NCBI GenBank assembly: GCA_015523545.1
Contig: WAKB01000001.1
Span: 258,159 to 309,539, forward strand
Origin: Candidatus Geothermarchaeota archaeon
GTDB taxonomy: Archaea > Thermoproteota > Nitrososphaeria > Geothermarchaeales > JDFR-13
Direction: 5' to 3'
Length of the DNA stretch: 51,381 bases
Positions 2,406 through 14,426 of the stretch are shown here, one piece after another (positions within the stretch are counted from its first letter, which is position 1; every line of letters begins with the position of its first letter). The position numbers and the translations under genes were made by a program. The notes beneath the pieces are model-generated. The model saw nothing but the letters and a program-made list of their open reading frames with translations, had not been told where the DNA came from and searched no databases.

Positions 2406-3286
2406 AGACTAGGGAGAGGGAGGAGGAGAGATCGGGGATCAGGGAGTTCTGGGACAGGTTCAGCGCCAACAAAGCGGCGGTAATATCCCTATACGTAATA
2501 ATAGGCCTCGGGATAGCCTCTATACTCGCCGACTACATAGCCCCATACGACCCATACGCCTTCGACATAGCCCGTAGACTGGAGCCCCCAAGCCCCCAAC
2601 ACCCCTTCGGCCTAGACCACCTCGGGAGAGACATACTGAGCAGGATCATCCACGGCGGGAGATACTCCATGGGGATAGCATATGCCTCAGTCCTCCTAGG
2701 GGCAGCCATAGGAGTCCTCCTAGGCGTCGTCTCAGGCTACTACGGTGGCTGGGTAGACGACGTCATACAGAGATTCACAGACGCGCTCCTATCACTACCA
2801 ACCCTCCTACTAGCGATAGCCCTAGTCACCGTCCTAGGCCTAGGCCTACAGAGCCTAATACTCTCCATCGGGATAAGCACTGTACCGGTATACATAAGGC
2901 TGGCCCGTAGCCTAGCCCTACAGGAGAGGAATATGGACTACGTCGTAGCCGCGAAGATCATGGGGAAGGGCGACGCATACATAATGGCTAGACACATACT
3001 CCCAAACATAGTCTCACCAATACTCGTCCAGTCAACCTACTATATGGGGCTAACCATCCTCATAGCATCTGGCCTGGGATTCCTAGGCCTAGGCGTCCAA
3101 CCACCAACCCCAGAATGGGGATCGATGATAGGACTAGGAAGGAACTATATCTATGCGGCGCCCCACGTAGTAGCGTTCCCCGGGATATTCATACTCATAA
3201 CAAGCCTAGCCTTCAACATCCTGGGAGACGGGCTACGAGACGCCCTAGACCCCAGGATGGCCAAGTATATAAAGAGGGGTGTATAG
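2390..3286 (+). CDS. dppC: Dipeptide/oligopeptide-type ABC transporter permease (DppC family)
   Basis: A 298-residue partner permease. It has the DppC N-terminal helix (FWDRFSANKAAVISLYVII), then the conserved APYDPYAFDIA...PSPQHPFGLDHLGRDILSRIIHGGR stretch diagnostic of this family. Six predicted membrane helices follow and a coupling loop reads DYVVAAKIMGKG...RHILPNIVSPI. It starts 16 bases inside dppB, so translation is probably coupled. Its stop is two bases before the first ATPase gene. Confidence 0.93.
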   Translation: MEQRIETREREEERSGIREFWDRFSANKAAVISLYVIIGLGIASILADYIAPYDPYAFDIARRLEPPSPQHPFGLDHLGRDILSRIIHGGRYSMGIAYASVLLGAAIGVLLGVVSGYYGGWVDDVIQRFTDALLSLPTLLLAIALVTVLGLGLQSLILSIGISTVPVYIRLARSLALQERNMDYVVAAKIMGKGDAYIMARHILPNIVSPILVQSTYYMGLTILIASGLGFLGLGVQPPTPEWGSMIGLGRNYIYAAPHVVAFPGIFILITSLAFNILGDGLRDALDPRMAKYIKRGV

Positions 3287-3288
3287 AG

Positions 3289-4254
3289 ATGCCGCTACTA
3301 GAGGTGAGGAACCTAAAGGTCTACTACGACCTCCCACAAGGCACGGTAAAGGCTGTGGACGGGGTATCCTTCAGCCTCGAGAAGGGTGAGATACTAGGCG
3401 TAGCTGGGGAGAGCGGATCAGGGAAGAGTACACTGGCACACTCAATAATAGGACTAGTAAAGCCTCCAGGCAGAGTAGTGGATGGAGAGATAATATTTGA
3501 GGGGAGAAACCTACTCGAGCTCAGCGAGGAGGAGCTCCGGGAGATAAGGGGTAAGGATATAACGATGGTGTTCCAAGATCCAAACACATATCTAAACCCG
3601 GTTCTAAGGATAGGGATCCAAGTAGGCGAGGTCTACGAGGCCCACCTCGGGATAGAGCCGAGGAAGGCGATCGACAAGGTGGTCGACCTACTCAGGAAGG
3701 TAAGGCTGACAGACCCTGAGAGGAGGGTGGAGTCATACCCCCACGAGCTGAGCGGCGGGATGAAGCAGAGAGTCATGATATCCATGGCCATAGCCCTCAA
3801 GCCGAAGCTGATAATACTCGACGAGCCCACATCTGCGCTGGACGTCACTATACAGGCCGAGATAATGGAGCTACTCATGGAGATGAGGGATGAGTTGGGG
3901 GCAGCCATGATCTTTATAAGCCACGACCTAGAGCTACTGGGCCAGGTCTCGGACAGGCTCATGATAATGTATGGGGGCAGACTGGTCGAGATAGGGGAGA
4001 CCGAGGAGATATTCAGGGATCCGCTACACCCATATACAGAGGCCCTGATAAACGCGATAAAATACGTCAGGAAGGAGGAGCTCCCCACACTGGAGGGGGA
4101 GCCCCCAAGCCTACTCAAACCCCCACCAGGCTGTAGATTCCACCCGAGATGCCCCAAGAGGATGGATAGGTGTAGCCTGGTCGAGCCCGGCGAGTATATG
4201 GTAGGGGGTAGGAGGGTATCGTGCCTACTCTACGAGGAGGAGGGAGATGCCTGA
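3289..4254 (+). CDS. dppD: Dipeptide/oligopeptide-type ABC transporter ATPase (DppD family)
   Basis: A 321-residue nucleotide-binding subunit that powers the importer. Visible motifs are Walker A GESGSGKST, Q-loop FQDPNTYLNP, signature LSGGMKQR, Walker B LIILDEPTSALD and H-loop ISHD. The C-terminal oligopeptide-transporter domain carries four cysteines (CRFHPRCPKRMDRC then a later C), a tail that in studied Opp/Dpp ATPases holds an iron-sulfur cluster. An in-frame extension to 3115 exists but overlaps dppC and lacks homology; ATG 3289, two bases after the dppC stop and starting MPLLEVRNLKVYY, is clearly the real start. It overlaps the next gene by 8 bases. Confidence 0.94.
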   Translation: MPLLEVRNLKVYYDLPQGTVKAVDGVSFSLEKGEILGVAGESGSGKSTLAHSIIGLVKPPGRVVDGEIIFEGRNLLELSEEELREIRGKDITMVFQDPNTYLNPVLRIGIQVGEVYEAHLGIEPRKAIDKVVDLLRKVRLTDPERRVESYPHELSGGMKQRVMISMAIALKPKLIILDEPTSALDVTIQAEIMELLMEMRDELGAAMIFISHDLELLGQVSDRLMIMYGGRLVEIGETEEIFRDPLHPYTEALINAIKYVRKEELPTLEGEPPSLLKPPPGCRFHPRCPKRMDRCSLVEPGEYMVGGRRVSCLLYEEEGDA

Positions 4255-9144: not shown

Positions 9145-10092
9145 TTACCTACCCATCCTAATCACGAGGTATGCCACGGGTATGGCTAGGAGGAGGATTA
9201 CCAGGTAGGTCAACGGGGTATTGACCGACCCATCCATCTCCTCCACACTGGCATCAGCCTCGCCAACCTCTTTGGAGACACCTTCACCTATGGCGTCCTC
9301 AGAGTCCTGGGGAGCCGAGTCACTACTGGAGATCCACTCCTCATATGGCGAGGTTGGGAGGGGTTCATACTCGGATTTGTTGAAGGCAATTACTAGTGGG
9401 TAGTCCCCAGGTATCACCTCCCTCACATATGCTGCGAAGGCCCTGATATCCTCCATGCTTGGCTGGATGTCACCCTGTATAACTATATGTAGGGTCATCC
9501 CAAGCCCTATCCTTATAGATGCGTGGAGACCCAGGAAGGTATCGATCTCACCATACCTGGAGAAGATCTGGACCGCCACGTTATCTATCTGCCTTATAAC
9601 GCTATCCTCATCAAGCTGCACAGGCCCAAGCACATCCCTTAGATACTCCACAGTCGACATACTGCCCAGCGTCGCATACACCTCCACCCTCTCCACACAT
9701 CTGGGAAGGCTACTTGTAGTCCGGCTAACCAGATCCTTGTCGAGCCCTCCCCAGACCACATATATTTCCAGGACTCCAGAGCGGTTATTAAAGTTCACAT
9801 CCTCTGTCCAGGGGAGGCTCTCCAGGACAAGTTCCTCTATGACTCCCGGGCTACAGGGGCCATCAACATCTACAGCCCTAGGGACCGTATATTTGTCGGT
9901 AAGGCTATAGATGTTCTCACGGCCGAAGAGGATGTAGACATCACCACCCACATATGTATAGGCGTCATAGTCTACAGGCTCATAGACCCTGATAGATACC
10001 ACATCCTCCGGGGTCTCTACAGCCTGTGCATACCACCCTGGAGACATGAACAGGATAGCCATCAGCAGGATAGGTAGGAATAGAGTCCTCAT
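9145..10092 (-). CDS. Surface-exposed protein with signal peptide, acidic stalk and C-terminal anchor
   Basis: A 315-residue protein of unrecognised family. An N-terminal signal peptide (about 1-25, ending YAQAVE) leads into an alpha/beta ectodomain (about 30-245). A Ser/Asp/Glu-rich low-complexity stalk follows (about 248-285, SSSDSAPQDSEDAIGEG). One membrane helix (about 290-311) and a short RMGR tail end it. The two cysteines of the ectodomain (SPRCV- and GPCSPG-type contexts) might pair. The layout resembles TPM-like or archaeal secreted repair proteins but no motif proves this. GGAGGTGAT, a strong Shine-Dalgarno sequence, sits 6 bases before the ATG, so it is translated from a leadered mRNA. 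Confidence 0.65.
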   Translation of the reverse strand: MRTLFLPILLMAILFMSPGWYAQAVETPEDVVSIRVYEPVDYDAYTYVGGDVYILFGRENIYSLTDKYTVPRAVDVDGPCSPGVIEELVLESLPWTEDVNFNNRSGVLEIYVVWGGLDKDLVSRTTSSLPRCVERVEVYATLGSMSTVEYLRDVLGPVQLDEDSVIRQIDNVAVQIFSRYGEIDTFLGLHASIRIGLGMTLHIVIQGDIQPSMEDIRAFAAYVREVIPGDYPLVIAFNKSEYEPLPTSPYEEWISSSDSAPQDSEDAIGEGVSKEVGEADASVEEMDGSVNTPLTYLVILLLAIPVAYLVIRMGR

Positions 10093-10284: not shown

Positions 10285-11178
10285 CTATTTAAACACTACC
10301 CCCGTCTCCATAGCCCATAGGAGGAGGTCAAGCTCTGCTGGGAGCATCCCCAGGTATCTAGCCAGCCAGCGGAACCGGGTCTCAAGCTCGATATACCTCC
10401 TCCTAGAGAGGCTCTTGGGGTAGCTGTTTATCAGCCTGAGCCGGGCCATCCACCTGAGGATATGCCTGTCCAGTATTGCTAGGTGTAGGCCCCTACCGAT
10501 GTTCCGGAGGAAGTGGCTCGCCTCCTTATATCCGAGGCCCTTCACACTCCTGACGAGCATCTCCCTAGCCATTAGGGGATCTTCTATGCTGAGTATCTCC
10601 CCTAGACGCCCCTCCATGTATAGCCTCCTAGCCCCAACTATGTATTGGGACTTCTTCCTCCAGAATCTACAGCCCCTGATCACCCTGCCTATATCCCCCG
10701 GCCCACCACTGTAGAGGGTGCCTGAGAGGTGTAGCTCCTTCACCTTCTCCCAGCACCTAATGGCGGGGCTCATAGGTGTGAGTAGGCAGAAGACAAGCTC
10801 GAGGAATATCCTCTCCTCCCCACATCTACCCACCTCCCTGAAGCTCTTGATTGCCCTCTCTATATCGCCTCTATACCTCTGATATGCATCCCAGACCGTC
10901 TCTAGGGATCCGCCTGAGACGTAGGTGAAGAGCTTAACCTTGGAGCCTGGCTCCACCACCGTGTCTAGGCCACTGGCCAGCATCACGTTCCTACCATCGA
11001 CCAGTATCCCGTAGGGGACACCCTCCCTATCAAGCTCCTCCACAAGCCTCTTGAGCTCTGGTATGGAGGAGATTATTGCTGATAGTGGCTCCGCCCTCTC
11101 GATGCTCAGCCTTATATAGTCCCTCCCAAGCCTAGTCCTGAAGATTCCGTATAGGAGGATCTCCACTTCGCGGGGCAT
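10285..11178 (-). CDS. ogg: MoaD/ubiquitin-like domain fused to Ogg2-type 8-oxoguanine DNA glycosylase/lyase
   Basis: A 297-residue two-domain protein. Residues 1-90 look like a MoaD/ThiS/SAMP beta-grasp domain: VEILLYGIF strand, helix ELKRLVEELD, YGILVDGRNV, DTVVEPGSKVKLFTYVSGG, ending in Gly89-Gly90. The remaining 207 residues match a full-length archaeal Ogg2 (MjaOgg-like) glycosylase: LLTPMSP, the helix-hairpin-helix VKGLGYKEASHFLRNIG with Lys218 as expected nucleophile, Asp237 in AILDRHI, and the LLLWAMETGVVFK tail. Ogg2 excises 8-oxoguanine and nicks the strand. The start at ATG 11178 is preceded by CTTTATAC about 25 bases upstream, so the mRNA is probably leaderless. A further upstream ATG (11259) lies inside the neighbouring gene and adds an unrelated basic tail. 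The fusion is discussed under findings. Confidence 0.85.
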   Translation of the reverse strand: MPREVEILLYGIFRTRLGRDYIRLSIERAEPLSAIISSIPELKRLVEELDREGVPYGILVDGRNVMLASGLDTVVEPGSKVKLFTYVSGGSLETVWDAYQRYRGDIERAIKSFREVGRCGEERIFLELVFCLLTPMSPAIRCWEKVKELHLSGTLYSGGPGDIGRVIRGCRFWRKKSQYIVGARRLYMEGRLGEILSIEDPLMAREMLVRSVKGLGYKEASHFLRNIGRGLHLAILDRHILRWMARLRLINSYPKSLSRRRYIELETRFRWLARYLGMLPAELDLLLWAMETGVVFK

Positions 11179-11209: not shown

Positions 11210-13201
11210 CTACTCCCCCTTGAACCTCGGCTTCCTCTTCTCCAAGAAGGCCGAGACACCCTCTATAAAGTCCTCCGTGGAGAAGGTTAGGCCGAAGAAG
11301 CCGGACTCTATCGCCTCGCCATGCCATAGATCCGTCTCTAGGCCTAGCTGTATCGAGTACTTAGCGGCCAAGAGGGCTAGTGGAGGCTTCTCAGCGAGTT
11401 TGAGGGCGAAGCTACGGGTATACTCCTCCAGCCTCTCAGGAGGGACCACCTTGTCAACCATACCCATCTCCAGCGCTTCATAGGCGTTGTACATGTCGCC
11501 GGTGTAGATCACCTCCTTGGCCTTGGATGGGCCTATCAGTCTAGCCAGCCTCTGCGTACCAGCGGCCCCAGGGATTATTCCCAGGTTTATCTCCGGCTGG
11601 CCAACAACGGCGAGTTCACTAGCTATGCGGAAGTCCCCGGCTAGGGCCAGCTCCATACCACCGCCTAGGGCGAAGCCGTTTATCATGATTATGACGGGCT
11701 TGGTGAAGTACTCTATCTTGTTTGTCAGCTCCTGGAAACGCCTTGAGAAGATAGCGGCCTTGAAGGGTGTTACACCGACGAAACTGTTAACATCCGCACC
11801 TGCGCTAAAGGCCCTACCCATCCCTGTGAGTATCACCACCCTGATATCCTCCATCTCCTCAATCTTGTCGAGAGCCTTCGAGAGCTCTTCCAAGAGCTGT
11901 GGCGAGAGGGCGTTGAGCTTGTCCGGCCTGTTCAGTATGATCCATGCCAGTGGCTTCTCAAACCTTATGATCAGGGTCTCCATCCGCTCCTCCTCATAGC
12001 TCGGATACTTGTAGAACCCCTCACCACTCCTAACTCCTAACAGCCCCTTACCAACCATCTCCCTCAGGAGTGGGTCGGGCTCGAACATCTTGAGGCCGGA
12101 GGCGCTATACATATGCTCCAACGCCTTCGCCACGTTATCGAGGCCATACTCGTCGCCATACCTCAGTATACCCTTGGGGTAGCCCAGGCCGAGGACGGTG
12201 GCCTTATCAATATCGTATTTTGAGGCTATACCCTCGCTCACGAGGTATGCAGCCTCGTTAACGGCCGGGGCGATAAGCATCACAGGGTTTAGATCCTCAG
12301 CCGCGTCCCTAGGTATCTCCGGCTTCACATACTTCCCTGGCGATGGGTACTGGTAGAAGCCCTCCCCACTCTTGACACCATACTTACCCTCCTTATACTT
12401 CTCCTCGAAGAGGCCGCAGCTATATACCTCCGTCCCCCTCTCGATCATGGCCTTCGCCACGAGGTAGAAGACGTCTATACCGCTGTAGTCGGCCAGCTCG
12501 AAGACGCCCATCGGGAAGCCAAGCTTATACCTAGCCACTGCGTCGACAGCCTCTATAGATGCGTTCCCACTCTCCACGAGCCAGCAGGCAGCAGCCATGA
12601 GCTTGAGCAGGATCCTATTGACTATGAAGCCAGGCACATCCCTCTTCACTAGGACTGTCTGCTTACCAAACCTCTTTGCCAAGTCCTCCGTAATCTTGAC
12701 GGTTAGGCTACTCGTCTTCTCCCCCCGTATCACCTCGACCAGTGGCATGAGTGGGGGCGGGTTGAAGAAGTGCATACCCACGACCTTCTCAGGCCTCTTA
12801 GTAGCCTCTGCGATCTCGCTTATGGGTAGGCTACTGGTATTCGTGGCTAGGACAGCGTGTCCAGGGGCCAGCTCATCCACCTTAGAGAATACCTCCCGCT
12901 TAAGCTCGATCTTCTCAGGTATAGCCTCGATCACGAAGTCGGCATCCCCCACAGCCTCCGCCAGATCCAGAGTGGGGTGTATCCTAGCCATTATAGTGTC
13001 AACATCCTCCCTCAACATCCTCTTGGAGACCAGCTTCTCCACACTCCACCTTATCTTACCCAGGGCGTTGTCGAGGAACTCCTGCTTAATATCGTAGAGG
13101 TAGACCTGGTACCCCGAGTATGCAGCCACCTCCGCTATTCCATGGCCCATGGTGCCTGCTCCAAGGACGGCCACAACCCTTATATCATCCACAGCCCCCA
13201 T
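11210..13201 (-). CDS. Fused 3-hydroxyacyl-CoA dehydrogenase / enoyl-CoA hydratase
   Basis: A 663-residue bifunctional beta-oxidation enzyme in the crenarchaeal order, dehydrogenase first. Residues 1-190 form the NAD-binding domain (VAVLGAGTMGHGIAEVAA; NTSSLPISEIA; GMHFFNPPPLMPLVEV with catalytic His). C-terminal dehydrogenase domains follow to about 400 (VKRDVPGFIVNRIL; GVKSGEGFYQYP; GVRSGEGFYKYP). A crotonase domain ends it, with both catalytic glutamates in GGGMELALAGDFRIA and PEINLGIIPGAAGTQRL. In autotrophic crenarchaea the same fusion is crotonyl-CoA hydratase/3-hydroxybutyryl-CoA dehydrogenase of the hydroxybutyrate cycles; here the neighbours favour fatty-acid degradation. ATG 13201 was chosen because GGTGGTG lies 4 bases upstream. 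Confidence 0.95.
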   Translation of the reverse strand: MGAVDDIRVVAVLGAGTMGHGIAEVAAYSGYQVYLYDIKQEFLDNALGKIRWSVEKLVSKRMLREDVDTIMARIHPTLDLAEAVGDADFVIEAIPEKIELKREVFSKVDELAPGHAVLATNTSSLPISEIAEATKRPEKVVGMHFFNPPPLMPLVEVIRGEKTSSLTVKITEDLAKRFGKQTVLVKRDVPGFIVNRILLKLMAAACWLVESGNASIEAVDAVARYKLGFPMGVFELADYSGIDVFYLVAKAMIERGTEVYSCGLFEEKYKEGKYGVKSGEGFYQYPSPGKYVKPEIPRDAAEDLNPVMLIAPAVNEAAYLVSEGIASKYDIDKATVLGLGYPKGILRYGDEYGLDNVAKALEHMYSASGLKMFEPDPLLREMVGKGLLGVRSGEGFYKYPSYEEERMETLIIRFEKPLAWIILNRPDKLNALSPQLLEELSKALDKIEEMEDIRVVILTGMGRAFSAGADVNSFVGVTPFKAAIFSRRFQELTNKIEYFTKPVIIMINGFALGGGMELALAGDFRIASELAVVGQPEINLGIIPGAAGTQRLARLIGPSKAKEVIYTGDMYNAYEALEMGMVDKVVPPERLEEYTRSFALKLAEKPPLALLAAKYSIQLGLETDLWHGEAIESGFFGLTFSTEDFIEGVSAFLEKRKPRFKGE

Positions 13202-13211
13202 GTTCACCACC

Positions 13212-14426
13212 CTATAGGCTAAGGACATCTATCCCGAAGCTCTTCTTCAGGAGCTGGCGAATAGTTGTCAGCCTCTGAATATCGTTCGTACCCTCATAGA
13301 TCGTGGTTATTATAGAGTCCCTAAGGAAGTGCTCCACACCAGTCTCCTTATCAACCCCGACACCACCATGAACCTTTATAGCTAGGGCGGAGACCTTCTC
13401 AGCCACCTCAGTAGCATATGTCTTAGCCATCGAGGCGGCGAATACATACTCCTCCCTACCCTGGTCAGCCAGGTTGGCGGCCCAGTATGTGAGGAGCCTA
13501 GCCGTCTGGATCATGGTCAGCATATCCGCCAGCTTGAAGCTGACGGCCTGGAAGGAGATTATCTGCCTACCGAAGGCCTGCCTCTGGAGGCTATAGTTGA
13601 AGGCCTTCTCAAATGCTCCCTGGGCGATGCCTACAGCCTGGGCAGCTATGCCGACCCTGCTATGGTCATACGTGGCTAGGAGCATCTTGAAGCCCTCGTT
13701 CTCAGGCGGTATAAGGTTCTCCTCAGGCACCTCCACATTGTCGAGTATAACCTCGCTGGGATGCTCACCGTCAAGGCCCATCACATCGAATCTGCTACCC
13801 ACCTCGACCCCCGGCCAGTCACGCTCCACGATGAAGAGAGAGATACCCCACCACCTCTTCCTACGCTCCTCAGGCGGGGGGCTAGTCCTGGCTGATACGA
13901 CGAAGTAGTCCGCCTTATCCGCACCCGTGATGAAGATCTTCCTACCGTTGATGATGTACTTATCACCCTCCTTACGGGCAGTTGTCTGTATCCCGGCTAC
14001 ATCACTGCCCGCGGCGGGCTCGGTATTGGCGTGGGCAGCGAACTTCTCACCCCTAGCCACGGGCGGGATATACTTCTTTTTCTGCTCCTCAGTACCGAAG
14101 GTCATGACTGGGTATGTGAAGAGGCCGTTCACCAGGAGGCCCGTCCCGAATGCGGGTAGGACTCGGGAGATCTCCTCCATCAGTATAACCAGGTACATTG
14201 AGCCTCCTCCCTGACCCCCGAGCTCCTCCGGGATCCCTATGCCGGTGAAGCCCATCTCGACAGCCTTCCTATACAGCTCCTCTGGTATGACGCCCTCCTT
14301 AACCACCTTCACAGCTATCGGCTCTATCTCACGCTCGACGAACTCCCTGACACTAGCCCTGAAAATCTCCAGCTCATCATCGATCTCGATGGAGTAGTCC
14401 TTGACACTGGTGAAGGGGAACACCAT
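13212..14426 (-). CDS. Acyl-CoA dehydrogenase
   Basis: A flavoenzyme of about 404 residues for the first oxidation step of beta-oxidation, passing electrons to ETF (etfAB lies at 37994-39657). It shows the family signatures FAAHANTEPAAGSDVAGIQTTA, the middle beta domain with KYIINGRKIFITGA, a helical C-terminus with RQAFGRQIISFQAVSFKLADM, and KVHGGVGVDKETGVEHFLRDS followed by the catalytic-Glu motif TIYEGTNDIQR. Start is ambiguous between ATG 14426 and in-frame GTG 14435; a TTATACT box near 14445 makes the ATG close to a leaderless position. It is 10 bases from the fused dehydrogenase/hydratase gene, forming an operon. Confidence 0.95.
   Translation of the reverse strand: MVFPFTSVKDYSIEIDDELEIFRASVREFVEREIEPIAVKVVKEGVIPEELYRKAVEMGFTGIGIPEELGGQGGGSMYLVILMEEISRVLPAFGTGLLVNGLFTYPVMTFGTEEQKKKYIPPVARGEKFAAHANTEPAAGSDVAGIQTTARKEGDKYIINGRKIFITGADKADYFVVSARTSPPPEERRKRWWGISLFIVERDWPGVEVGSRFDVMGLDGEHPSEVILDNVEVPEENLIPPENEGFKMLLATYDHSRVGIAAQAVGIAQGAFEKAFNYSLQRQAFGRQIISFQAVSFKLADMLTMIQTARLLTYWAANLADQGREEYVFAASMAKTYATEVAEKVSALAIKVHGGVGVDKETGVEHFLRDSIITTIYEGTNDIQRLTTIRQLLKKSFGIDVLSL

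Follow-up and report, generated by a model that had tools for sequence, protein, structure and literature searches.

A MoaD/SAMP-type ubiquitin-like domain with an internal diglycine fused to a predicted Ogg2 DNA glycosylase in Candidatus Geothermarchaeota

Gene organization of the locus

The window analysed here is a stretch of 51,381 nucleotides on contig WAKB01000001.1 of a Candidatus Geothermarchaeota archaeon (genome G000); two further genomes are referred to throughout, G002 (JALWXN010000004.1, a Nitrososphaeria MAG) and G006, a third species of the same genus. A single reading frame in the window encodes a ubiquitin-like (Ubl) domain followed directly by a predicted Ogg2 DNA glycosylase. 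The coordinates of these and of related features elsewhere are collected in Table 1. The junction reads YVSGG followed by SLETV, within the junction-spanning stretch VSGGSLETVWDAYQR. Close to the junction there is no in-frame start codon (ATG, GTG or TTG), the nearest being GTG 75 and GTG 116, and the Ogg2 part is thus without an obvious start of its own. The upstream 3-hydroxyacyl-CoA dehydrogenase/enoyl-CoA hydratase neighbour is also present in G002 and G006. A possible TATA box, an AT-rich stretch some 13 to 20 nt upstream of the ATG (about −13 to −20), is too near for a leaderless transcript from this start, and we therefore claim no promoter. Downstream, the fused gene adjoins a gene for a 315-residue protein (9145–10092, reverse strand) with an apparent N-terminal signal and a C-terminal membrane segment; this protein has no Pfam match, and G006 has no counterpart at the same place.

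Table 1. Features of the fused gene and of related loci. Locus numbers (L) are followed by positions within the locus.
Feature	Location	Strand	Basis or remark
Fused gene, 297 residues	10285..11178	-	ATG start at 11178, TAG stop ending at 10285; same frame intact in second genome
Residues 1–90, MoaD/ThiS/SAMP-type Ubl β-grasp domain	10909..11178	-	Profile, structure prediction, Foldseek
Residues 87–90, VSGG, with a putative cut after Gly90, before Ser91	10909..10920	-	Sequence; cut proposed from HvJAMM1 and MoaX precedents
Residues 91–297, complete Ogg2 8-oxoguanine DNA glycosylase/AP lyase (predicted), 207 residues	10288..10908	-	NF002305, PF22175; PDB entries 3fhf, 3knt, 3n0u, 3fhg
Lys218, catalytic lysine	10525..10527	-	Alignment; GYK lysine of M. 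jannaschii Ogg2
Asp237, catalytic aspartate of helix-hairpin-helix/GPD motif	10468..10470	-	Alignment
Lys297, C-terminal lysine	10288..10290	-	Alignment; PMC3397491
3-Hydroxyacyl-CoA dehydrogenase/enoyl-CoA hydratase fusion, upstream neighbour	11210..13228	-	Ends 31 nt before the ATG of the fused gene
MoaD upstream of MoaE	L135:503-835 (G000:C12); L136:593-907 (G002)		Orthologues L054 (G006), L049 (G021), L050 (G010)
ThiS–thiolase, fused	L131:1784-2947 (G000:C14); L132:1160-2302 (G002)
ThiS and thiolase, split	L133:1573-1776 plus 609-1652 (G006); L134:991-1197 plus 30-1019 (G021)
CxTCgxYDYFEDF domain beside Ogg2	L035:2615-2890, Ogg2 at 2901-3548 (G014); L010, L012-L014
CxTCgxYDYFEDF domain fused to Ogg2	L087, L098, L099, L105, L109, L110, L167-L171, L173-L175, L177-L180

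The chance that a sequencing or assembly error joined two genes is negligible. The relative that shares the fusion is a metagenome assembly, the genome of the window is a 17-contig draft and the sister species shows the split form, all of which would suit such an error; however, the same junction occurs in two assemblies with 8% nucleotide divergence, and dN/dS across the fused frame is 0.12. As the frame is intact in the second genome, we exclude an error for practical purposes: the fusion is real.

The ubiquitin-like domain

The original prediction, made from the letters of the window, read residues 1–90 as a MoaD-type β-grasp ending in YVSGG, and the profile, PDB-sequence and structure-prediction results bear this out. 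The Pfam ThiS profile PF02597 (cut-off 22.5 bits) matches residues 41–90, with 24.2 bits when residues 1–90 are scanned alone and 20.8 bits in the whole protein. The SAMP1 model NF041918 and the moaD_arch model TIGR01687 match residues 1–90 with E values of 2e-6 and 4e-5, respectively, both scoring below the curated cut-offs. Residues 1–92 form a β-grasp in the AlphaFold prediction (mean pLDDT 93.6), and the Foldseek search proposed for this stretch gave a solid β-grasp match: its best hits in the PDB are HVO_2177, SAMP1 and several MoaD structures, with a probability of 1.0. The structure prediction left out an alignment in which rows of MoaD alone stood beside rows of Ogg2 alone, the short rows being misaligned. 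The diglycine is internal in the fused chain instead of standing at the very C-terminus, and the separate gene of G006 likewise ends in GGI. Judged from its sequence, the Ubl part would need processing before acting as an active carrier.

The Ogg2 module

Residues 94–297 match the Ogg2 equivalog NF002305 with 188.7 bits and PF22175 with 161 bits (cut-offs of 183 and 27 bits, respectively). By sequence this part matches PDB entry 3fhf (E = 1.7e-32), and Foldseek matches it to 3knt with a TM score of 0.91 on the target. Lys218, Asp237 and Lys297 are invariant in an alignment of 39 Ogg2 sequences; the chain in 3knt has a Gln at the position of Lys218. The strictly conserved C-terminal lysine is how Ogg2 distinguishes 8-oxoG from G (PMC3397491). 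The module is complete, with the conserved catalytic residues of the family and a predicted glycosylase/AP lyase identity, and the proposal that the last 207 residues are a whole Ogg2 with its Lys218 and Asp237 agrees with the profiles, the structure match and the alignment.

The Ogg2 of this genus groups with that of family f16 with 100/100 support, apart from that of the family to which the genus belongs, and was therefore probably acquired or differentially retained. In the comparison of 10288–10908 in the window with loci L003–L009, it belongs to a clade with a TPQS-like motif, while the other genera of the family have the TANxxAE type.

Distribution and origin of the fusion

Among 300 genomes searched within the class, only G000 and G002 have the full-length fusion; the two fused frames are 95% identical in amino-acid and 92% in nucleotide sequence. 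Across the class and phylum searches the Ubl is fused to Ogg2 in two of 109 Ogg2 loci and adjacent to it in one, all three from this genus, and the other 106 surveyed loci have no Ubl partner. The fusion is thus young and rare, and the survey called for in the original prediction places it in two genomes within a single genus, the Ubl not being a common Ogg2 accessory. A tblastn search of plasmids returned partial Ogg2-like matches only and no fusion.

In G006 the Ubl and Ogg2 are separate ORFs in different frames: the Ubl ends in FTPVSGGI before its stop, and a candidate TTG start of Ogg2 follows 1 nt after the stop. Aligning G006 with the fused genes places an indel of ∼25 nt exactly at the diglycine. 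The separate Ubl gene is intact and 44% identical to the fused Ubl part. G021 gives neither a split nor a fused state, as the contig breaks off within the adjoining gene. The closest Ubl relatives from the family's other genera are unlinked to Ogg2 and adjoin aldehyde:ferredoxin oxidoreductase genes. The most economical order has adjacency before fusion, on a single branch within the genus; formally, G006 could instead have undergone fission.

Constraint on the two parts

Between G000 and G002 the two parts have nearly equal dS (0.27 for the Ubl part and 0.29 for the Ogg2 part) but differ in dN, which is 0.071 for the Ubl part (dN/dS of 0.26) and 0.019 for the Ogg2 part (dN/dS of 0.07). At the protein level the Ubl part has thus evolved about four times as fast, and the nonsynonymous difference is significant (Fisher p = 0.002). 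For four further Ubl genes compared between these two genomes, dN/dS is 0.02–0.10. The Ubl part is kept, although less strictly than the Ogg2 part and its paralogues, and its job may therefore be minor.

Taken further, these values could describe a near-neutral fusion, in which a redundant Ubl lost its stop and has since been carried along by Ogg2 while slowly decaying. The genome does hold four other GG-bearing ubiquitin-like genes, and the fusion is limited to two close relatives. We nevertheless find this account distinctly unlikely, as the dN of the Ubl part is still well below its dS (Fisher p of about 0.001), its frame, predicted fold and VSGG are all intact and the separate gene of G006 is intact as well.

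The relaxed constraint also bears on the purpose of the fusion. The original prediction was right about the domains, the internal diglycine and the completeness of Ogg2; a dedicated repair-linked modifier is less likely than a simple fusion of neighbouring genes, because the fusion occurs in part of one genus, the third species has separate ORFs and the Ubl part is under weaker constraint.

Other stop losses after VSGG

Two further Ubl genes of G000 and G002 lack a stop directly after the diglycine. The MoaD encoded upstream of MoaE reads PPVSGG followed by GCLNSLLIIMCGGARCLRGGL and a stop in G000, and PPVSGG followed by SRFKPPAEYSYGCGD and a stop in G002; these are orthologues with unrelated tails of 15–21 residues, whereas in G006, G021 and G010 the orthologue ends with GG. 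In the second case, a ThiS-type carrier runs from PVVSGG through AGCEICGEE... into an NcsA/TtuA-family tRNA 2-thiolation enzyme (thiolase), which scores over the cut-off of TIGR00269 and matches NF047749 and NF049949 with E < 1e-50 yet under their strict cut-offs. In the sister species G006 and G021 this carrier is a separate ORF of 67–68 residues that ends in VVSGG and overlaps the thiolase frame.

To function in molybdopterin synthesis, MoaD must have its C-terminal diglycine free (PMC4326299); as it is tailed in both G000 and G002, some trimming protease is implied in this lineage. Three genes of one lineage without a stop after the Gly-Gly of a Ubl are what would be expected if a protease routinely finishes Ubls. 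Such tails are no peculiarity of the lineage, an idea that we considered and rejected: among 31 sampled Thermoproteota Ubls, 14 have residues after GG, ten of them as tails of 2–23 residues and four as MoaD–MoaE fusions, which suggests that trimming is probably general. A MoaD-like paralogue without a diglycine, ending in SPRALFVL or SPRALFVV, lies beside a GG-ending MoaD in an aldehyde:ferredoxin oxidoreductase neighbourhood (L046:1785-2096, L053:1792-2178 and L057:1162-1467).

Proposed processing by a JAMM protease

Since the Ubl fold and VSGG are kept, the fused chain is most likely a linear precursor, and we lean towards its being cut after Gly90 by a JAMM/MPN+ protease. The starting point would have been a closely spaced, adjacent gene pair, a MoaD/SAMP-like Ubl followed by Ogg2, from which a small deletion removed the stop after the Gly-Gly of the Ubl to give a single polypeptide. 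Cleavage after Gly90 would then yield a mature Ubl whose diglycine is free to be activated by an E1, together with an Ogg2 of normal length (207 residues, from Ser91-Leu-Glu), and the released Ubl may serve as a sulfur carrier or a protein modifier.

The genome holds ThiF-type E1 genes and one Prok-JAB/JAMM gene (PF14464, 50 bits) with an HxHP...PSxxD motif, HGHPAPPRPSSLD. The Pfam match of the JAMM gene lies at G000:C6:27259-27558. The motif spacing is HxH-x6-S-x2-D, presumably one residue shorter than the textbook form. The JAMM gene is unlinked to the fusion and found in most of the family, and is therefore not specific evidence. In the full-length structure prediction the diglycine sits in a short low-confidence linker right before the Ogg2 helix of residues 92–116; so short a linker could hinder a JAMM protease.

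Release of MoaD or ThiS from proteins fused to them was proposed for JAB proteases in 2006 (PMC1779556). HvJAMM1 cuts SAMP1–MoaE, with no cut observed in vivo when GG or VSGG was missing (PMC4443979); in MoaX of M. tuberculosis the cut falls between Gly82 and Ser83 (PMC4326299); a Deinococcus JAMM cuts the MoaD–MoaE fusion DR2607 (PMC8832034); and a Caldiarchaeum JAMM cuts SAMP precursors (PMC6043591). Of the mechanisms suggested in the original prediction, JAMM-type release is the one favoured by the circumstantial evidence, namely the JAMM gene, the two other Ubls with an internal VSGG in the lineage and the published cleavage of SAMP1–MoaE, MoaX and DR2607; docking, which was also suggested, is a possible alternative. 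Together with its two sibling cases, the fusion renders archaeal Ubl precursor processing directly testable beyond the haloarchaea, on natural substrates with three different downstream sequences.

Alternatively, the chain may stay uncut, with the Ubl as a permanent N-terminal accessory through which Ogg2 is tuned in its binding to DNA, its release of product or its contact with partners. Ogg2 repeatedly gains N-terminal partners (an unrelated CxxC/DYFEDF domain of ∼90 residues is fused to it in 18 and lies near it in eight of the 109 loci), SUMO regulates the glycosylase TDG (PMC3040724) and both domains are predicted to be well folded with a short linker. Docking alone would not require a diglycine, yet both fused copies retain VSGG; the lineage also has a moaE-linked MoaD whose GG must be freed; and the full-length model (pTM of 0.74) was built with almost no inter-domain co-variation, so that its interface is not reliable. 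We regard a permanent accessory as possible, if unlikely; regulation of Ogg2 by the Ubl, if shown, would raise the significance of the fusion. Very unlikely, in our estimation, is a combination of regulation and cleavage, in which the uncut form would be a held-back Ogg2 activated by JAMM, perhaps under oxidative stress, so that Ubl release and the repair of oxidized guanine are switched on together. If true, this would couple a base-excision-repair enzyme to the supply of a sulfur carrier or ubiquitin-like modifier.

Relation to known systems

The modules and the principle of their fusion are already known; what is new, as far as we have searched, is Ogg2 as the partner and the loss of three such stops within a single lineage. 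SAMP1–MoaE, MoaX and DR2607 likewise have an N-terminal MoaD/SAMP β-grasp, an internal (VS)GG and a second enzyme directly after it, and MoaX has the same Gly-Gly/Ser junction. The present fusion differs in its partner, a DNA glycosylase for which no role in sulfur transfer is known, and in that its cleavage is a prediction. Eukaryotic ubiquitin–ribosomal protein fusions similarly place a ubiquitin-like protein at the N-terminus of an unrelated one, from which a protease releases it after GG, although other protease classes and another Ubl family are involved, and release in the present case is only proposed. With the Ogg2 family members in PDB entries 3fhf, 3knt, 3n0u and 3fhg the fusion has in common all 207 residues, the catalytic Lys and Asp and the C-terminal Lys; it differs by the added N-terminal domain and by having its Ogg2 in the divergent clade with family f16.

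Archaeal Ubl fusions reported previously include Ubl–E1 and Ubl–Cgi121 in Thaumarchaeota (PMC2948915) and MoaD–MoeB and MoaD–MoaE (PMC11237513). These are also lineage-specific and also combine a MoaD/ThiS-type Ubl with a second protein, but their partners belong to the pathways of Ubl activation, of cofactors or of tRNA; the words 'glycosylase' and 'Ogg' are absent from the fusion survey PMC11237513. In SUMO-modified thymine DNA glycosylase (PDB entry 1wyw; PMC3040724), too, a DNA glycosylase is covalently linked to a ubiquitin-like fold, but through an isopeptide on a lysine and not by genetic fusion, and the glycosylase fold is unrelated. We found no described fusion of a Ubl with a DNA glycosylase in the surveyed genomes or in the literature searched, fusion and Ubl surveys included, in keeping with the original remark that no Ogg2 of this layout had been described.

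Long Ogg2 ORFs (280–330 residues) elsewhere in the phylum were considered as carriers of the same Ubl and rejected, as they have the different CxxC/DYFEDF domain or a mere upstream extension of the frame. That domain comprises ∼85–90 residues with a CxTCgxYDYFEDF motif, is fused N-terminally to Ogg2 and otherwise encoded adjacent to it or nearby, and has no Pfam match over the cut-off; it is apparently a widespread, uncharacterized partner of Ogg2.
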